11,308 nucleotides of DNA. It comes from Nitrospinae bacterium RIFCSPLOWO2_12_FULL_45_22 (lineage in GTDB: Bacteria; 2-12-FULL-45-22). Below, piece by piece: positions 1,600 through 10,853 of the stretch (within the stretch, counting starts at the first letter, position 1; each line of letters begins with the position of its first letter). The notes under the pieces were generated by a model. It was given only the letters and a program-made list of their open reading frames with translations, was not told the origin of the DNA and ran no database searches. The DNA is taken from positions 1-11,308 of the forward strand of contig MHDQ01000312.1 of NCBI GenBank assembly GCA_001803565.1, written 5' to 3'. The position numbers and the translations under genes are program-made.

Positions 1600-1657
1600 T
1601 AATAGCACATACTTGAGCTAAAAAGTATTGTTTCTTATTGCACCACAGGTGTCTTTG

Positions 1658-2443
1658 ATGAGAATAGCTATTTCCGGTAAAGGTGGAGTGGGAAAGACTA
1701 CCCTGGCTGCCTGGATAGCCCGCTTGCTGGTCAAAGAAGGCCAGAATGTCCTCGCCATAGATGCCGATCCTACCAATAACCTGGCCCCTACCTTAGGCTT
1801 CCCGCCAGAGCTATACGAAAATATTGTTCCTCTGAAAGAGAGGAGCAACCTTATAGAAGAAAGGGTGGGAGCGCAGGGGGGGTTCTTTCGACTCAACCCC
1901 AAGGTGGATGATCTATTGCCTCAACTAGCAGTAGAATATCAAGGAATCAAGCTAATAGTTATGGGCACCATCAAAGAGGCCGGAGGTGGTTGTGCCTGTC
2001 CAGAGAATACTTTATTAAGGGCTTTTATCGGTCATCTCTTGTTAGAAAAAGGAGAATCGGTAATCGTAGATATGGAAGCGGGCCTGGAGCATCTGGGTCG
2101 AAGGACGGTTGAGGCAGTAGATGCCTTGCTCGTAGTTGTAGAGCCCAGTCAGAATAGCATAATGGTCGCCAAAAAGATAAAAGAGCTGGCTGAGGGTTTG
2201 GGCCTTAAAAAATCCTTTTTCGTGGCCAATAAGATCAATTCAGCCGAAGAAGAGCTCTTTATTCGAGCCCGATTGCCTGAGGAACATCTGCTAGGTTATT
2301 TGCCCTATTCTGAAAGTTTAAGGCGGCAGGCCCTTTCTGAATTATCTGAATCCTCTGTATTGACTAGGGATGCCAGGCTGGAGAGCGAGCTTAAGAACCT
2401 CTTGCGCCAAGTCAGGCTCAGAGGGATAACCCCAGGTAATTAA
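1658..2443 (+). CDS. cooC: CooC, nickel-insertion ATPase for carbon monoxide dehydrogenase
   Basis: CooC is a MinD/SIMIBI-class ATPase that helps insert nickel into the C-cluster of CooS. This 261-residue protein begins with a deviant P-loop, GKGGVGKTT (residues 7-15), whose first lysine is the signature lysine of dimerising family members. IDADPTNN (34-41) and DMEAGLEHLGRRT (138-150) are the nucleotide-switch regions typical of CooC. The metal-binding C112-x-C114 pair, in GGGCACPEN, falls at the residue numbers known for the characterised CooC1. That supports the ATG at 1658, preceded by AGGTG at 1646-1650, over the in-frame TTG ten codons upstream. It lies upstream of cooF-like and cooS genes, the expected maturation context. 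CooJ and CooT nickel chaperones are not seen here. Confidence 0.95.
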   Translation: MRIAISGKGGVGKTTLAAWIARLLVKEGQNVLAIDADPTNNLAPTLGFPPELYENIVPLKERSNLIEERVGAQGGFFRLNPKVDDLLPQLAVEYQGIKLIVMGTIKEAGGGCACPENTLLRAFIGHLLLEKGESVIVDMEAGLEHLGRRTVEAVDALLVVVEPSQNSIMVAKKIKELAEGLGLKKSFFVANKINSAEEELFIRARLPEEHLLGYLPYSESLRRQALSELSESSVLTRDARLESELKNLLRQVRLRGITPGN

Positions 2444-2488
2444 GATAACTTAATAATAGCGTAGGAAAGTCTATTCTGGACTCAGATA

Positions 2489-2612
2489 GACACAGATTAT
2501 CAGGATTTTAATAAAGTGGGCAATAAGCCGTGAGGAGAGAGAAGTTAACGGCTTACTGCTTACTCCTTACTGCTCACCAAAATATCTGTCTGAATCTGTG
2601 AAAATCTGTGTC
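2489..2612. repeat. Nested palindrome with CACAGATT-type outer arms
   Basis: The outer arms GACACAGATT (2489-2498) and AATCTGTGTC (2603-2612) pair perfectly over 10 bases, and the similarity continues inward with gaps. Inside lies an independent hairpin, TAAGCCGT (2524-2531) with ACGGCTTA (2548-2555). The inner segment 2530-2572 aligns without gaps to 7839-7881 at 35 of 43 positions, although the outer arms of the two elements are unrelated. Confidence 0.6.
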
Positions 2613-2613
2613 C

Positions 2614-2746
2614 TAATTAATTGCCACTGAAAAATGGGGTGTCGAGCAAGCTCGACCACTACATGCATCATGAAAACAGTATTGCTAGAGCAATCGGTAG
2701 TGGTAAAGCTTGCTTTGCTGGTTTTTTCAGTGGGAACTAATTAATT
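2614..2746. repeat. MITE-like inverted-repeat element, about 133 bases
   Basis: Two arms of about 50 bases (2614-2662 and 2697-2746) are imperfect inverted copies around a 34-base centre. Perfect paired blocks include CCACTGAAAAA (2624-2634) with TTTTTCAGTGG (2723-2733), and ACCACTAC (2655-2662) with GTAGTGGT (2697-2704). The left arm also holds its own perfect hairpin, GTCGAGC-AA-GCTCGAC (2641-2656). The size and inverted ends resemble a miniature non-autonomous element. No transposase and no clear target duplication is seen. Confidence 0.55.
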
Positions 2747-2770
2747 TAAGAATAAAGGAGGAGTCCAGCA

Positions 2771-3274
2771 TTGAAAGATGTATTCATTGAATTAGAAAAG
2801 TGCCAGGGTTGTAAATCGTGTGAGTTGGCCTGTGCCGTTGAGCATTCTAAGGCAAAAACCCTCTTCGCTGCTATAAGCGAAACACCTTTACCCCGGAAAA
2901 GGGTCTTTGTCGAATATGTTGACGGTAAACGATTTCCAATTCAGTGTCGCCATTGCGAAGAGGCGCCCTGTGTAGCTATATGTGTCTCAGGGGCTTTGAG
3001 TCGGGACGAATCGCGGGCCCTAGTTACCCATTCCAAAGAAAGGTGTATTGGCTGTGGGATGTGTGTAATGGTATGCCCTTTTGGCGTTATTACCAGGGAG
3101 ATGGGCAGTAAAGTGATTACAAAATGCGACCGGTGTAAGGATAGGGATGAGCCGGCTTGTGTTGAGTCCTGCCCGGTAGGGGCCCTGGTTTTTACTGATA
3201 TGGAAGAGCTAGAGAAGACCAGGCGAAGAGGGGTCATAAAAAACGTACTAATTGGTGGCTTCAAGGCCAGCTAA
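2771..3274 (+). CDS. cooF: CooF-like four-cluster [4Fe-4S] electron-transfer protein
   Basis: CooF-type proteins carry electrons between CooS and a partner enzyme. This 167-residue protein has 16 cysteines in the four-cluster DmsB/HycB arrangement: C11-C14-C17-C21, C59-C62-C67-C71, C92-C95-C98-C102 and C119-C122-C130-C134. It has no signal peptide or membrane segment, so it should be cytoplasmic. The start is a TTG at 2771, seven bases after a strong AAAGGAGGAG (2754-2763). No ATG lies in frame before the first cluster motif, and a start at residue 1 keeps the usual VFIELEKCQGC opening. Its position between cooC and cooS supports the CooF role. The same fold serves many oxidoreductases, so the true electron acceptor is inferred. 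Candidates are the NuoE/F/G-like subunits encoded downstream. Confidence 0.88.
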   Translation: MKDVFIELEKCQGCKSCELACAVEHSKAKTLFAAISETPLPRKRVFVEYVDGKRFPIQCRHCEEAPCVAICVSGALSRDESRALVTHSKERCIGCGMCVMVCPFGVITREMGSKVITKCDRCKDRDEPACVESCPVGALVFTDMEELEKTRRRGVIKNVLIGGFKAS

Positions 3275-3287
3275 TATGCGGGACGGG

Positions 3288-3356
3288 GTTATTAGGTGAT
3301 TAGGTTATTGGATAATCTAAATAACCAATGACCCAATAACGTAATGACCCAATAAC
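3288..3356. repeat. GTTATT-type imperfect palindrome with tandem 15-base repeat
   Basis: The left arm 3288-3311 matches the reverse complement of the right arm (ending at 3356) at 21 of 24 positions. An inner hairpin pairs GGTTATT (3303-3309) with AATAACC (3320-3326). The right arm contains AATGACCCAATAACG twice, at 3327-3341 and 3343-3357. It lies between the cooF-like gene and cooS, 66 bases before the cooS ribosome binding site. It has no T-tract and is not a convincing terminator. Confidence 0.6.
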
Positions 3357-3434
3357 GAAATTCTCTATCTACTCTGTGGTTAGACCGGCAGAGGCATTTC
3401 TGTAAAAGACGTAGTTTTCAGTGGAGGGACAAAG

Positions 3435-5348
3435 ATGACGGAGAGTGAGAAGAAGTCTAGTGATTTAGCATCAAGATATATGCTGGATAAAGCCAAGGCC
3501 CTTGGCCTGGAGACCATCTGGGATCATTATGAAGCTATGTTGCCCCAGTGCGGTTTTGGTGAATTAGGTGTCTGTTGCCGGATGTGCCTGGAAGGCCCCT
3601 GTCGGATAGACCCCTTTGGCGAAGGAGCAAAGGTAGGGGTCTGTGGTGCTACGGCCGATGCTATTGTTGCCCGGAACCTGGATCGGGCCATTGCCGCTGG
3701 TACTGCCTCCCATTCTGATCATGCCCGCCATGTAGCCCTCACGCTGCTGGCCGTAGCGGAAGGTAAGGCCCCAGATTACAAGATAACCGATGTAGGAAAG
3801 TTGAAGCAGGTAGCTAGCCGGATAGGTATCAAGCTAGATAAAAAGGATAATCTTACCCTGGCTAAAGAGGTAGCGCTTGCTGCCCTGGAAGATTTTTCTC
3901 GACAAGATGTCAATATACCCTTGACCTGGGTTGCGACCACCATGACCCCGGGACGCATCGAGGTATTTTCTAAATTGGGTATTGTCCCGCACAATATAGA
4001 TGCCAATGTCTCAGAGATCATGCACCGCACCAGCCGCGGTAATGATGCCGACCCGGTCAATTTATTACTCGGAGGAATCAAATGTGCCCTATGCGACTAT
4101 GCTGGTTGCCATATCGCCACGGACCTGTGCGATATCCTCTTCGGTACCCCTAAGCCGGTAGTCTCCCAGGCCAACCTGGGGATATTGAAAAAGGATGCAG
4201 TGAACATTGCTGTCCATGGCCATAATCCCCTCCTCTCGGATATAGTGGTAGATGTCGCAGGTCAACTGAGAGACGAAGCCATCAAGGCCGGGGCCAAGGA
4301 AGGGATAAATATGGTAGGGATCTGTTGCACTGGTAATGAAGTCCTGATGCGCAAGGGGGTAGGTATGGCTACCCACTCGGTATCGCAAGAATTAGTGGTC
4401 ATGACCGGCGCCTTAGATGCTATAGTAGTTGATATTCAGTGCATTATGCCCTCCCTGAGCTCTTTGTGTGACTGTTTCCATACCAAATTAATAACCACCA
4501 TGCCTATTGCAAAGATACCCGGGGCTACCCATATAGAATTCCATGATGATAAAGCGGTAGAATCGGCCAAGAAGATCATTCGGTTAGCTATCGAGGCTTA
4601 TAAGCACCGGGACCCCAAAAAAGTGGATATCCCTGATGTAAAACAGACGGCTATGGCTGGCTTTAGCCTCGAGGCTATTGTAGAAGCCCTGAGTAAGGTA
4701 GATGCCAAAGACCCCTTAAAACCTTTGATAGATAACATTGTCAATGGTAATATCCAGGGTATTGCCCTGTTTGCCGGCTGTAACAATGTAAAAATAGTAC
4801 AGGACCAGAACTATCTGGCTATGGTAAAGGAATTGGCTAAGAATAACGTTTTAATCCTGGCAACGGGCTGTGGCGCTGGGGCCTTTGGCCGGCATGGCTT
4901 TCTAACTTCAGAGGCCACAGAAGAATATGCTGGCCCGGGACTTAAGGCCGTCCTTACTGCTATTGGTCAGGCAGTAGGCTTGAATGCCCCATTGCCCCTG
5001 GTATTACATATGGGCTCCTGTGTAGACAATACCCGGGCAGCGGATGCAGCCGTTGCGGTAGCTAATAAGCTGGGGGTGGATATATCACAACTGCCCGTGG
5101 TAGCATCCGCGCCGGAGGCCATGGCAGAAAAGGCCATTGCCATTGGTACCTGGGCTGTGGCTGCGGGATTACCTACCCATGTAGGTGTGGTACCACCGGT
5201 CCTGGGTGGACCATTAGTCACGGAAGTCTTAACTAAAACGGCCAAGGACCTTTTGGGTGGTTATTTCATTGTGGAGACCGATCCGGTGGCGGCAGCGGGG
5301 AAGCTATTGGATGCTATCAGAGAGCGCCGCAAGGGATTGGGTATCTGA
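3435..5348 (+). CDS. cooS: Anaerobic nickel-iron carbon monoxide dehydrogenase, catalytic subunit
   Basis: CooS catalyses the reversible oxidation of CO with water to CO2, two protons and two electrons. The 637-residue length is normal for the monofunctional enzyme. All cluster ligands known from the Carboxydothermus hydrogenoformans CODH-II structure appear present. C39 and C47 (D-cluster) and C48, C51, C56 and C70 (B-cluster) fall at identical numbers. H261, C298, C336, C449, C479 and C529 (NiFe C-cluster) are at the same number or three higher. The catalytic lysine corresponds to K566, in SAPEAMAEKAIA. The histidines H93, H96 and H99 of the proton path are also there. The ATG follows GGAGGG (3423-3428). 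No acetyl-CoA synthase subunit accompanies it, so it probably acts as a free-standing CO dehydrogenase or CO2 reductase. The NuoE/F-like genes downstream suggest coupling to NAD(P). Confidence 0.98.
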   Translation: MTESEKKSSDLASRYMLDKAKALGLETIWDHYEAMLPQCGFGELGVCCRMCLEGPCRIDPFGEGAKVGVCGATADAIVARNLDRAIAAGTASHSDHARHVALTLLAVAEGKAPDYKITDVGKLKQVASRIGIKLDKKDNLTLAKEVALAALEDFSRQDVNIPLTWVATTMTPGRIEVFSKLGIVPHNIDANVSEIMHRTSRGNDADPVNLLLGGIKCALCDYAGCHIATDLCDILFGTPKPVVSQANLGILKKDAVNIAVHGHNPLLSDIVVDVAGQLRDEAIKAGAKEGINMVGICCTGNEVLMRKGVGMATHSVSQELVVMTGALDAIVVDIQCIMPSLSSLCDCFHTKLITTMPIAKIPGATHIEFHDDKAVESAKKIIRLAIEAYKHRDPKKVDIPDVKQTAMAGFSLEAIVEALSKVDAKDPLKPLIDNIVNGNIQGIALFAGCNNVKIVQDQNYLAMVKELAKNNVLILATGCGAGAFGRHGFLTSEATEEYAGPGLKAVLTAIGQAVGLNAPLPLVLHMGSCVDNTRAADAAVAVANKLGVDISQLPVVASAPEAMAEKAIAIGTWAVAAGLPTHVGVVPPVLGGPLVTEVLTKTAKDLLGGYFIVETDPVAAAGKLLDAIRERRKGLGI

Positions 5349-5495
5349 ATATTCGGGGGAGAGAAAATTACTTTCTCGGCCCAGCACCGACTTGCGATTG
5401 TTGGGTTACATGCAGGAAAAAGGGGCCAGTAAGAAAAATTCTTATCCAGCATGGGCGGAGTAGGATCAGCCGGAGGAGGTGAAAGCTTTTTAATT

Positions 5496-5954
5496 ATGGA
5501 AAGACTAGAAGCAATAATAAAAAATTATGGATTTGAAAAAAGAGCCCTTATACCTATTCTCCAGGATATTCAGACAGAGTATGGCTGGCTCTCTGAGGAC
5601 TTATTAAAGCAAGTGGCCCAGAGGTTGAAAATTCCCTCAATGGACGTGTTCAGTGTTGTAACATTTTATAAGTCTTTCAGATTGAAGCCTATAGGTAAGT
5701 ATTTCATGACTGTCTGTCTTGGCACTGCATGTCATGTAAGGGAAGCACCCGAAGTATTGGGTGAGATTCAGAGAAAGATCGGCATAAAAAACGGTGAGAC
5801 TACCGCTGATAATCTCTTTACCCTGGAAACGGTTAACTGTGTTGGGGCATGTGCCTTAGGCCCTATTGTTATGGTGAATAATGAATACCACGGTTTGATG
5901 AATAAAAACAAGATAGACCAACTCATCAAGAGGCTCTATGCAAAGGATCTATAA
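5496..5954 (+). CDS. nuoE: NuoE/HydC-like thioredoxin-fold [2Fe-2S] subunit
   Basis: This 152-residue protein is the 24-kDa-type subunit that partners NuoF or HydB flavoproteins. It has an N-terminal helical bundle (about 1-60) and a thioredoxin-like domain with the [2Fe-2S] ligands C74-x4-C79 and C115-x3-C119 (CLGTAC, CVGACALGP). Translation most likely starts at ATG 5496, since homologues begin near MERLEAIIKNYG. GGAGGAGGTGA (5472-5482) is a very strong Shine-Dalgarno sequence but lies 13 bases away. A longer frame opens at ATG 5451, but its extra 15 glycine-rich residues contain the Shine-Dalgarno sequence itself and are unlikely to be translated. The 3' end overlaps the next gene by 17 bases, implying translational coupling. 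The gap after cooS is 147 bases, with a small hairpin (GAGAAA 5361-5366 with TTTCTC 5372-5377) but no clear terminator. Confidence 0.92.
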   Translation: MERLEAIIKNYGFEKRALIPILQDIQTEYGWLSEDLLKQVAQRLKIPSMDVFSVVTFYKSFRLKPIGKYFMTVCLGTACHVREAPEVLGEIQRKIGIKNGETTADNLFTLETVNCVGACALGPIVMVNNEYHGLMNKNKIDQLIKRLYAKDL

Positions 5955-7785
5955 TCTGCAGGACTTAGATGATTTAAGGGCAGAAATAAAAAAAAGGCCT
6001 CAGGGCAAAGCTATAACTATTGCTGTTTGCAATGGTACGGGTTGCCAGGCGTATGGGTGCGGGAAGGTTACTCAGGCATTTATGGATGAAGTCACAAAAC
6101 ATGGACTGGATGTGGAGATCAAGCCAACGGGTTGCCACGGCTTCTGCCAATCGGGTCCCATTACAGTTATACACCCGGACGGCATCTTCTATCAGAGGAT
6201 AAAACCTGAAGATGTAGGGGAGATCATTTCAGAAACTATCATGAGAAATCGTATCATACAACGTCTCCTCTATGAGGACCCTTTAACCCTTGAGAAAATC
6301 ACCTATGAGAAAGATGTACCCTTTTATAAAAAGCAGATGCGAATAATCTTTGGGAATAACGGATTTATCAATCCCAGAAACATAGATGACTATATCGCCA
6401 TTGGTGGCTATTCGGCCATATCTAAGGTACTCAAAGAGATGGAGCCGGAAGAAGTGATAGGGGAAATAAAAAACTCTGGCTTGCGGGGAAGAGGAGGTGC
6501 TGGTTTTCCTACAGGAGTAAAATGGGAGGTTTGCCGGAACGCAGAAGAGGATCAAAAATACCTTATATGCAATTCTGATGAGGGGGACCCCGGGGCATAT
6601 ATGGACCGTAGTCTTTTAGAAGGGAATCCCCATTCCGTGATAGAGGGAATGCTCATAGGCGCTTATACCATTGGGGCACCGAAGGGCTTTATCTATGTCC
6701 GTCATGAATATCCCCTTGCCGTAAAGAATATTTCCTTTGCTATTTCACAAGCTAGCGAATATGGGTTATTGGGAAAAGACATCCTTGGCCCTTCTTTTAG
6801 TTTTGATATCGAGATTATCAGGGGTGCCGGGGCCTTTATCTGTGGTGAGGAGACTTCACTGATAGCCTCTATTGAAGGGGGTAGGGGGGAGCCGCGGCCC
6901 AGACCTCCATATCCTGCCCAAAAAGGTCTCTGGGGTAAACCGACCAATATCAATAATGTCGAAACCTGGGCCAATATTCCGCTTATCATAGATCGGGGAG
7001 CCGATTGGTATACCCAAATGGGTACTGAAAAAAGTAAAGGGACCAAGATATTTTCCCTGGTAGGTAAAATCAACAATACCGGTCTGATTGAGGTGCCTAT
7101 GGGCATTAGCTTGCGAGAGGTCATCTACGAGATTGGGGGTGGTATTCCCGGGGGTAAGAAATTCAAGGCTATCCAGACTGGAGGTCCTTCTGGTGGCTGT
7201 ATCCCGGCAGCCATGCTCGATCTTCCCATAGATTATGAGGGCTTAACGGCCGCGGGTTCCATTATGGGTTCCGGCGGTTTAGTCGTCATGGATGAAGATA
7301 CCTGTATGGTTGACGTAGCAAAATATTTTCTCAAATTTACTGTCGATGAATCCTGCGGCCTATGCACTCCCTGCCGGGAAGGGATCAAGCAGATGCTTCA
7401 TCTCCTTACCCGAATAACCGAAGGAAAGGGTAAGGAGGGAGATATTGAGCTGCTAGAGGAGCTATGTCAGGCGATAAAGGATGCCTCCCTGTGCGGCTTG
7501 GGGGGGACAGCCCCTAACCCGGTCCTCTCAACACTCCGCTATTTCCCGGAGGAATACCAGGCCCATATCAAAGACAAGAGATGCCCAGCGAAGGTATGCC
7601 GCCCATTAATCCGCTATCAGATAGATGCTGAGAAATGTGTTATCTGTGGCCTATGTATAGAGAGTTGTCCAGAAGGGGCTATTGCAAGCGAAGCAGGCGA
7701 GTCCCCCACTATAAATCTCGATAAATGTATCAAATGTGGTATATGCCTTGATACCTGCCCCTCTGAAGCTATTATAGTGCAATGA
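5938..7785 (+). CDS. nuoF: NuoF/HydB-like NAD(P)H-oxidising flavoprotein with extra iron-sulfur domains
   Basis: This 615-residue subunit is the NAD(P)H and FMN site of a Nuo/Hyd-type complex. Its domains in order are as follows. Residues 20-100 form a thioredoxin-like domain with C31, C36, C66 and C70. Residues 125-350 form the FMN/NADH-binding core, with GLRGRGGAGFPTGVKW and NSDEGDPGAYMDRSLLEGNP. An SLBB domain lies around 365-450. The N3-type [4Fe-4S] site is ESCGLCTPCREG (C473, C476, C479) plus C519. A C-terminal two-[4Fe-4S] ferredoxin has C567-C570-C573-C577 and C597-C600-C603-C607. C549 and C554 (CPAKVC) precede the ferredoxin, as in HydB. This layout is that of HydB/HndC, not respiratory NuoF, which lacks both ends. 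It starts inside the NuoE-like gene after AAGAGG (5928-5933). With CooS nearby, NAD(P) coupling of CO oxidation is inferred. Confidence 0.95.
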   Translation: MQRIYNLQDLDDLRAEIKKRPQGKAITIAVCNGTGCQAYGCGKVTQAFMDEVTKHGLDVEIKPTGCHGFCQSGPITVIHPDGIFYQRIKPEDVGEIISETIMRNRIIQRLLYEDPLTLEKITYEKDVPFYKKQMRIIFGNNGFINPRNIDDYIAIGGYSAISKVLKEMEPEEVIGEIKNSGLRGRGGAGFPTGVKWEVCRNAEEDQKYLICNSDEGDPGAYMDRSLLEGNPHSVIEGMLIGAYTIGAPKGFIYVRHEYPLAVKNISFAISQASEYGLLGKDILGPSFSFDIEIIRGAGAFICGEETSLIASIEGGRGEPRPRPPYPAQKGLWGKPTNINNVETWANIPLIIDRGADWYTQMGTEKSKGTKIFSLVGKINNTGLIEVPMGISLREVIYEIGGGIPGGKKFKAIQTGGPSGGCIPAAMLDLPIDYEGLTAAGSIMGSGGLVVMDEDTCMVDVAKYFLKFTVDESCGLCTPCREGIKQMLHLLTRITEGKGKEGDIELLEELCQAIKDASLCGLGGTAPNPVLSTLRYFPEEYQAHIKDKRCPAKVCRPLIRYQIDAEKCVICGLCIESCPEGAIASEAGESPTINLDKCIKCGICLDTCPSEAIIVQ

Positions 7786-7794
7786 TTATTGATA

Positions 7795-7900
7795 ACCGCA
7801 GAGACGCAAAGGACGCAGAGATATGTAGGTCGTAAGGAGTGAGGAGTTAGTAGTTAACTCCTCACTGCCCACTCCTTACTGAACTTTGCGCCTTTGCGGT
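7795..7900. repeat. Nested palindrome with GCAAAGG-type outer arms
   Basis: The outer arms ACCGCAGAGACGCAAAG (7795-7811) and CTTTGCGCCTTTGCGGT (7884-7900) pair at 15 of 17 positions. Inside is a perfect 12-base hairpin, AGTGAGGAGTTA (7838-7849) with TAACTCCTCACT (7855-7866), and an overlapping alternative, GTAAGGAGTG (7832-7841) with CACTCCTTAC (7870-7879). The inner module 7839-7881 is shared with the element at 2489-2612. It lies 9 bases after the NuoF-like stop and 12 bases before the next ribosome binding site, so it fills most of that gap. Confidence 0.65.
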
Positions 7901-7912
7901 GCATAATTTTTT

Positions 7913-7932
7913 CGAGGAGAGAATAAACCATT
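7913..7932 (+). promoter_or_regulatory. Ribosome binding site pointing to an ATT start codon
   Basis: GAGGAGAG (7914-7921) is followed 8 bases later by ATT (7930-7932), then ATA, AAA and TTG (7939-7941), all in one frame. An in-frame TAA at 7924-7926 blocks any start further upstream. The TTG is 17 bases from the Shine-Dalgarno sequence, which is too far for efficient initiation. Starting at ATT gives the sequence M-I-K-L-I-V-N, the usual opening of this family. Confidence 0.5.
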
Positions 7933-8691
7933 ATAAAATTGATTGTTAATAATCAAGAGATCGAAGCAAAGGAAGATAGTACTCTCTTGCAAGCTGCTTC
8001 TGCCATGGGTATTGTCATCCCTACCCTATGCTTTCATGAAGCATTGGGGCCTCATGGTAGTTGTCGGGTATGTCTGGTAGAGATAGTAAACGGTGCCCGG
8101 CCGGGACTGGTGGCCTCTTGCACCTATCCGGTCGAAGAAGGATTAGTCGTAGAGACCAATAATACTAAAGTTCTAAAAACCAGAAGGATAATGGTTGAAC
8201 TCCTATTAGCCCGCTGTCCTGACTCAACAAAGATTCGGGGACTGGCTAACGATTTAGGCATTGCTGAACCCCGGTTTGATAAAGAAAATGAGAGTTGTAT
8301 CTTATGTGGCTTATGTGTACGGGTTTGTCGAGAGATCGGCATAAACTCGGTGGGGTTCATTCAACGGGGGACCAATAGAGAGGTCACTACCCCCTTCCAG
8401 AAACCTTCAGAGGTCTGCTTGGGTTGCCAGGCCTGTGCATTCCTCTGCCCCACGGGTGCGATAAAGTTTGAAGATGTAGCCGAGGAAAGAAAAGTAGAAA
8501 AATGGAAAACATCCATTAAACTCCAGCGATGTTCTTCCTGCAGCCGGCCCTTCTTCCCTGAGCCATTGCAGCTTTATTTAAAAGAAAAGGAGTTATTAGT
8601 ACCAGAAAATATAGGACTATGTGAAGTATGCCGCCGCAAATCCCTCGGCTCCAGACTGGCCAGCATCCTTAGCCGAAAATCAACGGTATAG
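7930..8691 (+). CDS. NuoG/HydA-N-like iron-sulfur protein without a catalytic domain
   Basis: This 253-residue protein (numbered from ATT 7930; 250 if TTG 7939 is used) matches the N-terminal electron-transfer part of NuoG and [FeFe]-hydrogenase HydA. A plant-type [2Fe-2S] domain has C34-x10-C45-x2-C48 and C64. A short linker ELLLARCPDSTKIRGLA lacks the His-Cys cluster ligands of NuoG. Two [4Fe-4S] motifs follow, C123-C126-C129-C133 and C163-C166-C169-C173. The tail has two CxxC pairs, C201-x2-C204 and C231-x2-C234, resembling a zinc-ribbon or extra cluster site. No H-cluster or molybdopterin domain follows, so it must act as a wiring subunit for another enzyme. CooS is the obvious candidate in this cluster, though HdrA-type partners elsewhere cannot be excluded. 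The gene starts 144 bases after the NuoF-like stop, behind the palindrome at 7795-7900. Confidence 0.88.
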   Translation: MIKLIVNNQEIEAKEDSTLLQAASAMGIVIPTLCFHEALGPHGSCRVCLVEIVNGARPGLVASCTYPVEEGLVVETNNTKVLKTRRIMVELLLARCPDSTKIRGLANDLGIAEPRFDKENESCILCGLCVRVCREIGINSVGFIQRGTNREVTTPFQKPSEVCLGCQACAFLCPTGAIKFEDVAEERKVEKWKTSIKLQRCSSCSRPFFPEPLQLYLKEKELLVPENIGLCEVCRRKSLGSRLASILSRKSTV

Positions 8692-9683: not shown

Positions 9684-10853
9684 ATGAGACAAGCTTTCAT
9701 TATTATGCAAATTGGTAATCCCAACTTGGATATAGTTTGTAAAGAGTCTATCGTCCCTGCACTACAGTCGTGCGCCCTTGAACCAAAGCGTGTTGATAAA
9801 CATAATGAGGGTGGTTTGTTAAAAAGTGAAATAGTTGGATTTATAAAATCGTCAGATATTATTGTTGCCGATCTTACCAATGAAAGGCCTAATTGTTACC
9901 TTGAGGTAGGATATGTTATGGGTCTAGACAAATTACGAAATTTAATTCTAACTGCACGAGAAGACCATAATCAGGATAGCCCAAATTATAAAAAGGGAGG
10001 CCCTAAGATTCATTTTGATCTAAGTGGCTATGATATCTTATTTTGGGAGCCAAACAGCCTTAATAAATTTAAAGAAGAACTTGAAAAGCGTGTAAGGCAC
10101 CGGCTAGAAACTTTAGAACTTCGTATGCCTACTTCGGTTTCTCCTTGGGATGAAGAATGGATTTCCCAACAGCAAGATTTAGCTTTCTCGGGGCTAGAAA
10201 GATCCGGTAAATCAGGATTCATGGAAATTCGAATGACTCTACCTGATTCGAAGATTAGTATCGCACACGAAGAACTGCTTCGCATCGCTGAACAAGCACA
10301 AATTTCTACATCCGGTTGGCCCCTTGGAGTTGTTGTTAATAGCGAAGAATATTGTCCAAAATCAACGACAGGTGGTATTGTTGCTGAAATAGATTCTGGA
10401 GGTGGAAGGAGTTATGATTATTGGACTATTCGAAGAGACGGTACATTTTATTTGCTGAAAAGCTTGTTTGAGGATGGGAGGAAACAAGGATATATCTTTT
10501 ACGATATAAGGATAGCTCGGATAACAGAAGCTTTGCTTTACGCTGTTCGTTTTTATTCAGGTTTTAAGGTACCTCCTGATTCTCGCATTTTAATCAGAAT
10601 ACGACATGGGGGACTTAAAGACCGGGTTCTCGGTACTTCGAGAGTAGAAAGAGTCCCCGATTACAACCGTAATTGTAAAGATGATGAAGTATGTACTGAG
10701 GTTGAAACAACTTTTAAGAAAATAGAATCAGATCTAGTGGATCTCGTCCAAAGGTTCACACAGGAACTTTTTGTAATATTTAATTTTTTTAAAGTCAACA
10801 GAAAGGAACTGGAGGATATAGTCAACAATTTCATGGCAGGAAGAGTTACATAA
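9684..10853 (+). CDS. Two-domain protein: deoxyribosyltransferase/TIR-like N-terminus plus conserved C-terminal module
   Basis: This 389-residue protein has no assigned function. Residues 1-145 resemble the nucleoside 2-deoxyribosyltransferase-like/TIR-like nucleotide-binding fold. The strand FIIMQIG opens it, then come SSDIIVADLTNERPNCYLEVGYVMG (written here as SSDIIVADLT and NCYLEVGYVMG, 56-80, with D63 and E74 as likely key residues), NLILTARE (86-93) and FDLSGYDILFW (111-121). Residues about 175-315 form a second module with GWPLGVVV, RSYDYWTIRRDGTFYLLKSL (242-261), DIRIARITEALLYA (274-287) and RIRHGGLKDR (305-314). My recollection is that this module also occurs behind AlbA/Schlafen-type domains. 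The tail (335-389) is helical. There are no signal or membrane segments. The ATG follows AGGTGGAG (9672-9679). The more AT-rich text and the neighbouring antitoxin-like gene suggest an accessory, possibly defence-related locus. Confidence 0.75.
   Translation: MRQAFIIMQIGNPNLDIVCKESIVPALQSCALEPKRVDKHNEGGLLKSEIVGFIKSSDIIVADLTNERPNCYLEVGYVMGLDKLRNLILTAREDHNQDSPNYKKGGPKIHFDLSGYDILFWEPNSLNKFKEELEKRVRHRLETLELRMPTSVSPWDEEWISQQQDLAFSGLERSGKSGFMEIRMTLPDSKISIAHEELLRIAEQAQISTSGWPLGVVVNSEEYCPKSTTGGIVAEIDSGGGRSYDYWTIRRDGTFYLLKSLFEDGRKQGYIFYDIRIARITEALLYAVRFYSGFKVPPDSRILIRIRHGGLKDRVLGTSRVERVPDYNRNCKDDEVCTEVETTFKKIESDLVDLVQRFTQELFVIFNFFKVNRKELEDIVNNFMAGRVT

Follow-up and report, generated by a model that had tools for sequence, protein, structure and literature searches.

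A carbon monoxide dehydrogenase gene cluster with a predicted electron-bifurcating BfuABC core, a pairing that was probably assembled more than once

A carbon monoxide dehydrogenase (CODH) coupled to a bifurcating flavoprotein core was predicted by Schut et al. in 2022 (PMC9304861) as "Codh-Bfu", a Type 2 BfuABC with CO as the third substrate, from four Firmicutes sequences; the examples include Acetohalobium arabaticum and Clostridium cellulovorans, and their BfuB belongs to clade 49. NuoEFG-like proteins had been noted near WLP-type CODHs in 2019 (PMC6344411). In the open-licence literature we found no study of Codh-Bfu later than PMC9304861 and no biochemical test of any Codh-Bfu. The enzyme class itself is not new, having been predicted in 2022.

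The window, the whole stretch of DNA analysed here, is the entire 11.3-kb contig C312 of a 3.67-Mb genome that is 85% complete. Its plus strand carries cooC, cooF, cooS, bfuC, bfuB and bfuA in this order, followed by a corrinoid adenosyltransferase gene; coordinates and family matches agree with the first-pass annotation, which had placed cooC, cooF, cooS and then HydC-, HydB- and HydA-N-like genes on one strand. cooC (1628..2443) encodes a P-loop ATPase for nickel insertion (CbiA/MinD-type P-loop family) and is also present in other Codh-Bfu loci. The first ATG giving the P-loop N-terminus is at 1658 (1628/1658-2443). cooF (2771..3274; Fer4_11, CooF tree) encodes a ferredoxin-like protein whose 16 Cys make up four [4Fe-4S] motifs, and cooS (3435..5348) the Ni-CODH catalytic subunit (TIGR01702, 755 bits, cut-off 478). 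Several genes of the cluster are separated by gaps of about 150-330 bp, which we counted against assuming one transcript. Rfam gives no match in the window, and promoter- or terminator-like sites are no more frequent there than in shuffles. The window has neither energy-converting NiFe hydrogenase genes next to cooS, as in CODH-ECH, nor a pyridine-nucleotide-disulphide oxidoreductase (FNOR) gene next to cooF-cooS, as in CODH-FNOR. Upstream, 348-1535 encodes a 395-aa old-yellow-enzyme type oxidoreductase; of the mycofactocin OYE model (645 residues), it matches the N-terminal half only. Downstream, 9684-10853 encodes a 389-aa protein with no Pfam or NCBIfam match; its residues 44-96 are similar to a TIR effector profile (PADLOC, 7e-9).

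The nearest solved structure to CooS is CODH-II (1su6). A ligand check identifies it as a Ni-CODH, with complete ligands for the C, B and D clusters (C39, C47, C48, C51, C56, C70, H263, C297, C336, C449, C479, C529 and K566 were found); the histidine and five cysteines of the C-cluster and the catalytic lysine are all kept. CooF, which we propose as the electron relay from CooS to BfuA, has 16/16 Cys conserved across eight Codh-Bfu CooFs.

The three Bfu proteins resemble the BfuABC family (HydABC-like). BfuC (5496..5954; NuoE/HydC-like; PF01257, 3.9e-52) is the thioredoxin-like [2Fe-2S] subunit, and C74, C79, C115 and C119, expected of a BfuC, are conserved (8/8). BfuB (5938..7785; HydB-like) is the predicted FMN/NAD(H) bifurcating subunit, and its best solved relatives are HydB subunits of bifurcating hydrogenases, 7t2r_B (885 bits; a bifurcating NiFe-hydrogenase and the best match in the PDB), 7q4v_B and 8a6t_B. 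The B2 cluster of 7t2r is held by Cys438, Cys476 or Thr, His525, Cys531 and Cys536 (PMC8880783), which correspond to C456, T494, H543, C549 and C554 of BfuB. The N-terminal [2Fe-2S], the B1 (N3) site and both C-terminal [4Fe-4S] sites (eight Cys) are complete, so that FMN domain, SLBB, N3, B2 and C-terminal 2x[4Fe-4S] are all present, as in a BfuB. The full HydB layout first read in this 615-residue flavoprotein is thus upheld by the ligand check and the match to 7t2r_B. As a control, the complex I NuoF of the same genome (L037) is without the N-terminal and C-terminal sites specific to bifurcation. The ligand set of a bifurcating core is present; bifurcation itself, and NAD rather than NADP as the acceptor, are putative. 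At the N-terminal [2Fe-2S] site, the Codh-linked BfuBs L022, L077 and L127 of other genomes have Gly-Gly where the first two Cys would stand; the absence of these two cysteines in some Codh-linked BfuBs is a point against the bifurcation reading. BfuB is lengthened to 1013-1062 aa in L238 (1174-4269), with similar lengths in L243, L029, L025 and L035. In L238 this gene adjoins a formate dehydrogenase within an acs operon, and the added part of the protein is a GltD-like domain of the pyridine-nucleotide-disulphide oxidoreductase type.

BfuA (7939..8691; HydA-N-like; best PDB match 9mqx_A) had been said to keep the wiring clusters of HydA and to have no H-cluster domain. Of the HydA clusters it does keep the [2Fe-2S] and two [4Fe-4S], but the His-ligated one is absent (no PF10588 match), so that the statement on the wiring clusters applies in part. 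The protein has no PF02906 (H-cluster) match, as had been noted, no molybdopterin domain and no catalytic domain of its own. With A1, A2 and A4 only and neither A3 nor A5 (the A-numbering of the motifs is our interpretation), it belongs to Type 2, a class in the scheme of Schut et al. (PMC9304861). The C-terminus has an extra Cys4 site (C198, C201, C228, C231), which is also in 9mqx_A. The predicted model of BfuA is moderate (pLDDT 72, pTM 0.50), and its fold match to 9mqx_A contributes little beyond the sequence match.

The host genome was surveyed by family searches over the 85%-complete assembly, and absences refer to this assembly. No [FeFe]-hydrogenase was found and no [NiFe] hydrogenase matched above cut-off (one [NiFe]-like match is sub-threshold), in keeping with the first description of a cluster with no hydrogenase. 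The genome has a single cooS; one other genome of the phylum was searched and has no such cooS. It has three NuoF/BfuB-type genes: the bfuB of the window, a formate-dehydrogenase-linked gene on contig C317 and one of complex I type. On C317 (L038, 64-7319), bfuC-bfuB lie with an 871-aa molybdopterin formate-dehydrogenase-like protein, followed by NfnA/NfnB-like genes. This Bfu is the closest to BfuC and BfuB of the window (71 and 75% identity). A separate CODH/ACS of CdhA/CdhC type is encoded on C157, where the CdhA-like gene is near the CdhC-like gene. Here (L056, 8785-15887) the CdhA-like protein has 842 aa and the short CdhC-like protein 317 aa, an archaeal type in a bacterial genome, and a MoxR/VWA-like gene lies between the two.

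The arrangement recurs. In a scan of named species genomes with a CooS alignment, 80 loci were kept, and five of these have the order cooF-cooS-bfuC-bfuB-bfuA (a Syntrophomonadaceae MAG, a Clostridiales Family XIII MAG, two Treponema MAGs and an Archaeoglobaceae archaeon). A second sample comprised 386 genomes, mostly of different genera, and was diverse and non-random. cooS was found at E<=1e-100 in 38 of them, and a Bfu with stand-alone BfuA adjoins it in 6/38 (the window genome, G011, G039, G060, G451 and G472). The strict clusters with stand-alone BfuA (L022, L199, L077, L084, L091, L093, L127, L021, L198, L227 and G472) range over Bacillota, Treponema, an Archaeoglobaceae archaeon and several other bacterial families, and most have the order cooF-cooS-bfuC-bfuB-bfuA. 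Both genomes with this CooS type in the phylum of G011 have Bfu genes; other loci there, with more distant CooS (about 35-38%), were examined with 1.5-kb flanks and have none. The search for conserved synteny that had been proposed thus finds cooS with the trio in ten or more loci, unrelated genomes included. As the arrangement recurs in at least ten loci, chance adjacency of cooS and the bfu genes is excluded.

Proximity alone is no proof of coupling. In five further genomes of the 38 a formate-dehydrogenase-type Bfu lies near cooS in acs operons, and the acs-operon loci examined have a formate-dehydrogenase-type BfuA. Loci L238, L243, L246, L250 and L252 were therefore rejected as Codh-Bfu, the Bfu belonging to molybdopterin (formate dehydrogenase-like) proteins; L250 is classed only through its genus, which is that of L252. 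Recurrence of the trio without cooS and with its own catalytic partner had been named beforehand as evidence against coupling, and half of this is found: the trio occurs without cooS, and beside formate dehydrogenases. Such behaviour would be expected if the family is modular, as it is, and in the host the formate dehydrogenase has its own bfuCB.

CooS and Bfu of the window appear to have different histories. In the CooS trees the window protein groups with G420, its closest sister, which has FNOR beside it, and with hydrogenase-linked CooS, apart from the other Codh-Bfu CooS; the nearest relatives L058 and L088 have energy-converting NiFe hydrogenase genes alongside. In the BfuB tree the sister of the window protein is the formate-dehydrogenase paralogue from the same genome (75%). 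A single clade is rejected by AU tests both for Codh-linked BfuB (p 2.6e-6) and for Codh-linked CooS (p 8.6e-5). These p-values are somewhat optimistic: gene context defined the groups, but the tests were run after the first trees had been inspected. The two rejections indicate that the CODH-Bfu pairing probably arose repeatedly. Repeated joining is the simplest reading of the trees; a weaker one is that the genes were joined once, long ago, and that parts of the cluster were replaced later.

An exchange of cassettes can be followed between two species of one genus, G343 (L225, contig C33) and G472 (L226/L274, contigs C141 and C80). Their cooC-cooS DNA is 89-97% identical and their CooS 93.6% identical up to the last codons of cooS, where the loci diverge. 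G343 continues with cooF-FNOR, and this 96%-complete genome has no BfuB match at E<=1e-60. G472 continues with a different cooF (49% identical) and then bfuC, within which contig C141 ends; its final 141 bases recur unchanged as the first 141 bases of C80, which completes bfuC and carries bfuB and bfuA. Since the loci are alike up to the end of cooS and different after it, the acceptor cassette, cooF included, was exchanged and cooC and cooS were retained. Short of biochemistry, this swap argues more strongly than anything else that the Bfu genes serve such a CooS. Together with the conserved synteny and the full ligand sets, it supports the first-pass proposal that CooS feeds electrons to the Bfu module.

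We consider it likely that the cluster encodes a Codh-Bfu, a CO-oxidising enzyme that shares electrons between NAD and ferredoxin. Complex formation, electron path, bifurcation and stoichiometry are modelled on characterised Bfu homologues. CooC would mature CooS, which would oxidise CO at its Ni-Fe-S cluster. Electrons would pass from the B and D clusters of CooS through CooF to A4, A2 and A1 of BfuA and on to the BfuBC core, where FMN with the B and C clusters would split them between NAD+ (exergonic) and ferredoxin (endergonic). The net reaction would be 2 CO + 2 H2O + NAD+ + 2 Fd(ox) -> 2 CO2 + NADH + 2 Fd(red) (protons omitted), reversible in principle. CO at high concentration can reduce ferredoxin without bifurcation, which counts against a need for it. 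The E0' of CO2/CO is about -520 mV; at pCO2 0.1 atm and pCO 1e-6 atm we estimate that the couple rises to about -370 mV, which is too weak for ferredoxin alone, yet near the NAD+/ferredoxin mean. The enzyme would probably serve to scavenge CO when it is scarce and, by itself, too weak a donor to reduce ferredoxin; Schut et al. had made the same argument for low CO (PMC9304861).

The same proteins might also form a complex that does not bifurcate, a CO:NAD(P)+ oxidoreductase with NAD(P)+ as its sole electron acceptor, which is also the presumption for CODH-FNOR. The in-place FNOR exchange is evidence that the same cooS can work with a simple NAD(P) reductase, and CO is a strong enough donor for NAD+ unaided; however, BfuB retains the ligands of B2 and the two-cluster domain at the C-terminus, both reported to be missing in non-bifurcating homologues (PMC9304861), and we regard such an enzyme as unlikely. 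It is quite improbable that the complex works in reverse, NADH and reduced ferredoxin driving CO2 to CO for acetyl-CoA synthase. L021, L198 and L227 do have bfuCBA, cooS and acs genes in one cluster and the window genome has CdhC, but no acs gene is adjacent in the window, the host has its own CdhA near CdhC and, with E(CO2/CO) near -520 mV, CO2 reduction by a mixture of NADH and ferredoxin would be uphill unless CO were trapped. That CooS-CooF reduces free ferredoxin and BfuABC serves a partner encoded elsewhere is very improbable: the trio is found without cooS in other genomes and its best BfuCB relative in the host serves formate dehydrogenase, but unrelated genomes repeat the pairing although their CooS and BfuB come from different lineages, cooF is swapped along with the Bfu cassette, and formate dehydrogenase already has its own bfuCB.

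Returning to the bifurcating Codh-Bfu, the broader proposal, which we hold with about even confidence, is that CODH and the Bfu core came together on several independent occasions, in Bacteria and in Archaea and in part through in-place exchange with an FNOR cassette, to give a CO:NAD/ferredoxin bifurcating enzyme for trace CO, and that the window copy unites a CooS of the hydrogenase/FNOR lineage with a copy of the host's own formate-dehydrogenase Bfu core. Repeated assembly and the natural swap argue for a real function behind a prediction that once rested on four sequences. The two species with 93.6% identical CooS, one apparently feeding FNOR and the other Bfu, are a ready experimental pair. 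If active, the enzyme would account for the ability of anaerobes to draw energy from CO at very high dilution, and for a link between the pools of CO, NAD and ferredoxin that needs no hydrogenase.

The cluster shares with the predicted Codh-Bfu (PMC9304861) the clustering of CODH genes with bfuABC, CO as the proposed third substrate and a BfuA without catalytic domain. In the published examples the CODH genes lie between bfuB and bfuA, whereas in the window cooF-cooS precede bfuC-bfuB-bfuA; the published layout, which the window does not match, is an argument in PMC9304861 and not a definition. The published list is of Firmicutes only, whereas relatives of the window cluster span other phyla and an archaeon, and the window BfuB is closest to the formate-dehydrogenase Bfu of its own genome. 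The bifurcating hydrogenase NiFe-HydABCSL (7t2r/7t30) has the same BfuB layout and ligands and an A subunit that lacks the H-cluster and is supplied by an additional catalytic partner, but the partner is a NiFe hydrogenase and HydA is much longer (692 aa). The BfuA of the electron-bifurcating tungsten aldehyde oxidoreductase Wor-Bfu (9mqx) has the same length, clusters and C-terminal Cys4, but the third substrate is an aldehyde. CODH-CooF-FNOR clusters (PMC6344411), one of which occupies the same locus in the sister species of a Bfu carrier, also place an NAD(P)-linked flavoprotein beside cooS and cooF, but FNOR consists of one pyridine-nucleotide-disulphide oxidoreductase and lacks a bifurcating core. 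As far as the open-licence literature goes, our additions to these systems are a broader distribution, assembly on more than one occasion, the cassette swap and the mixed ancestry of the window copy.
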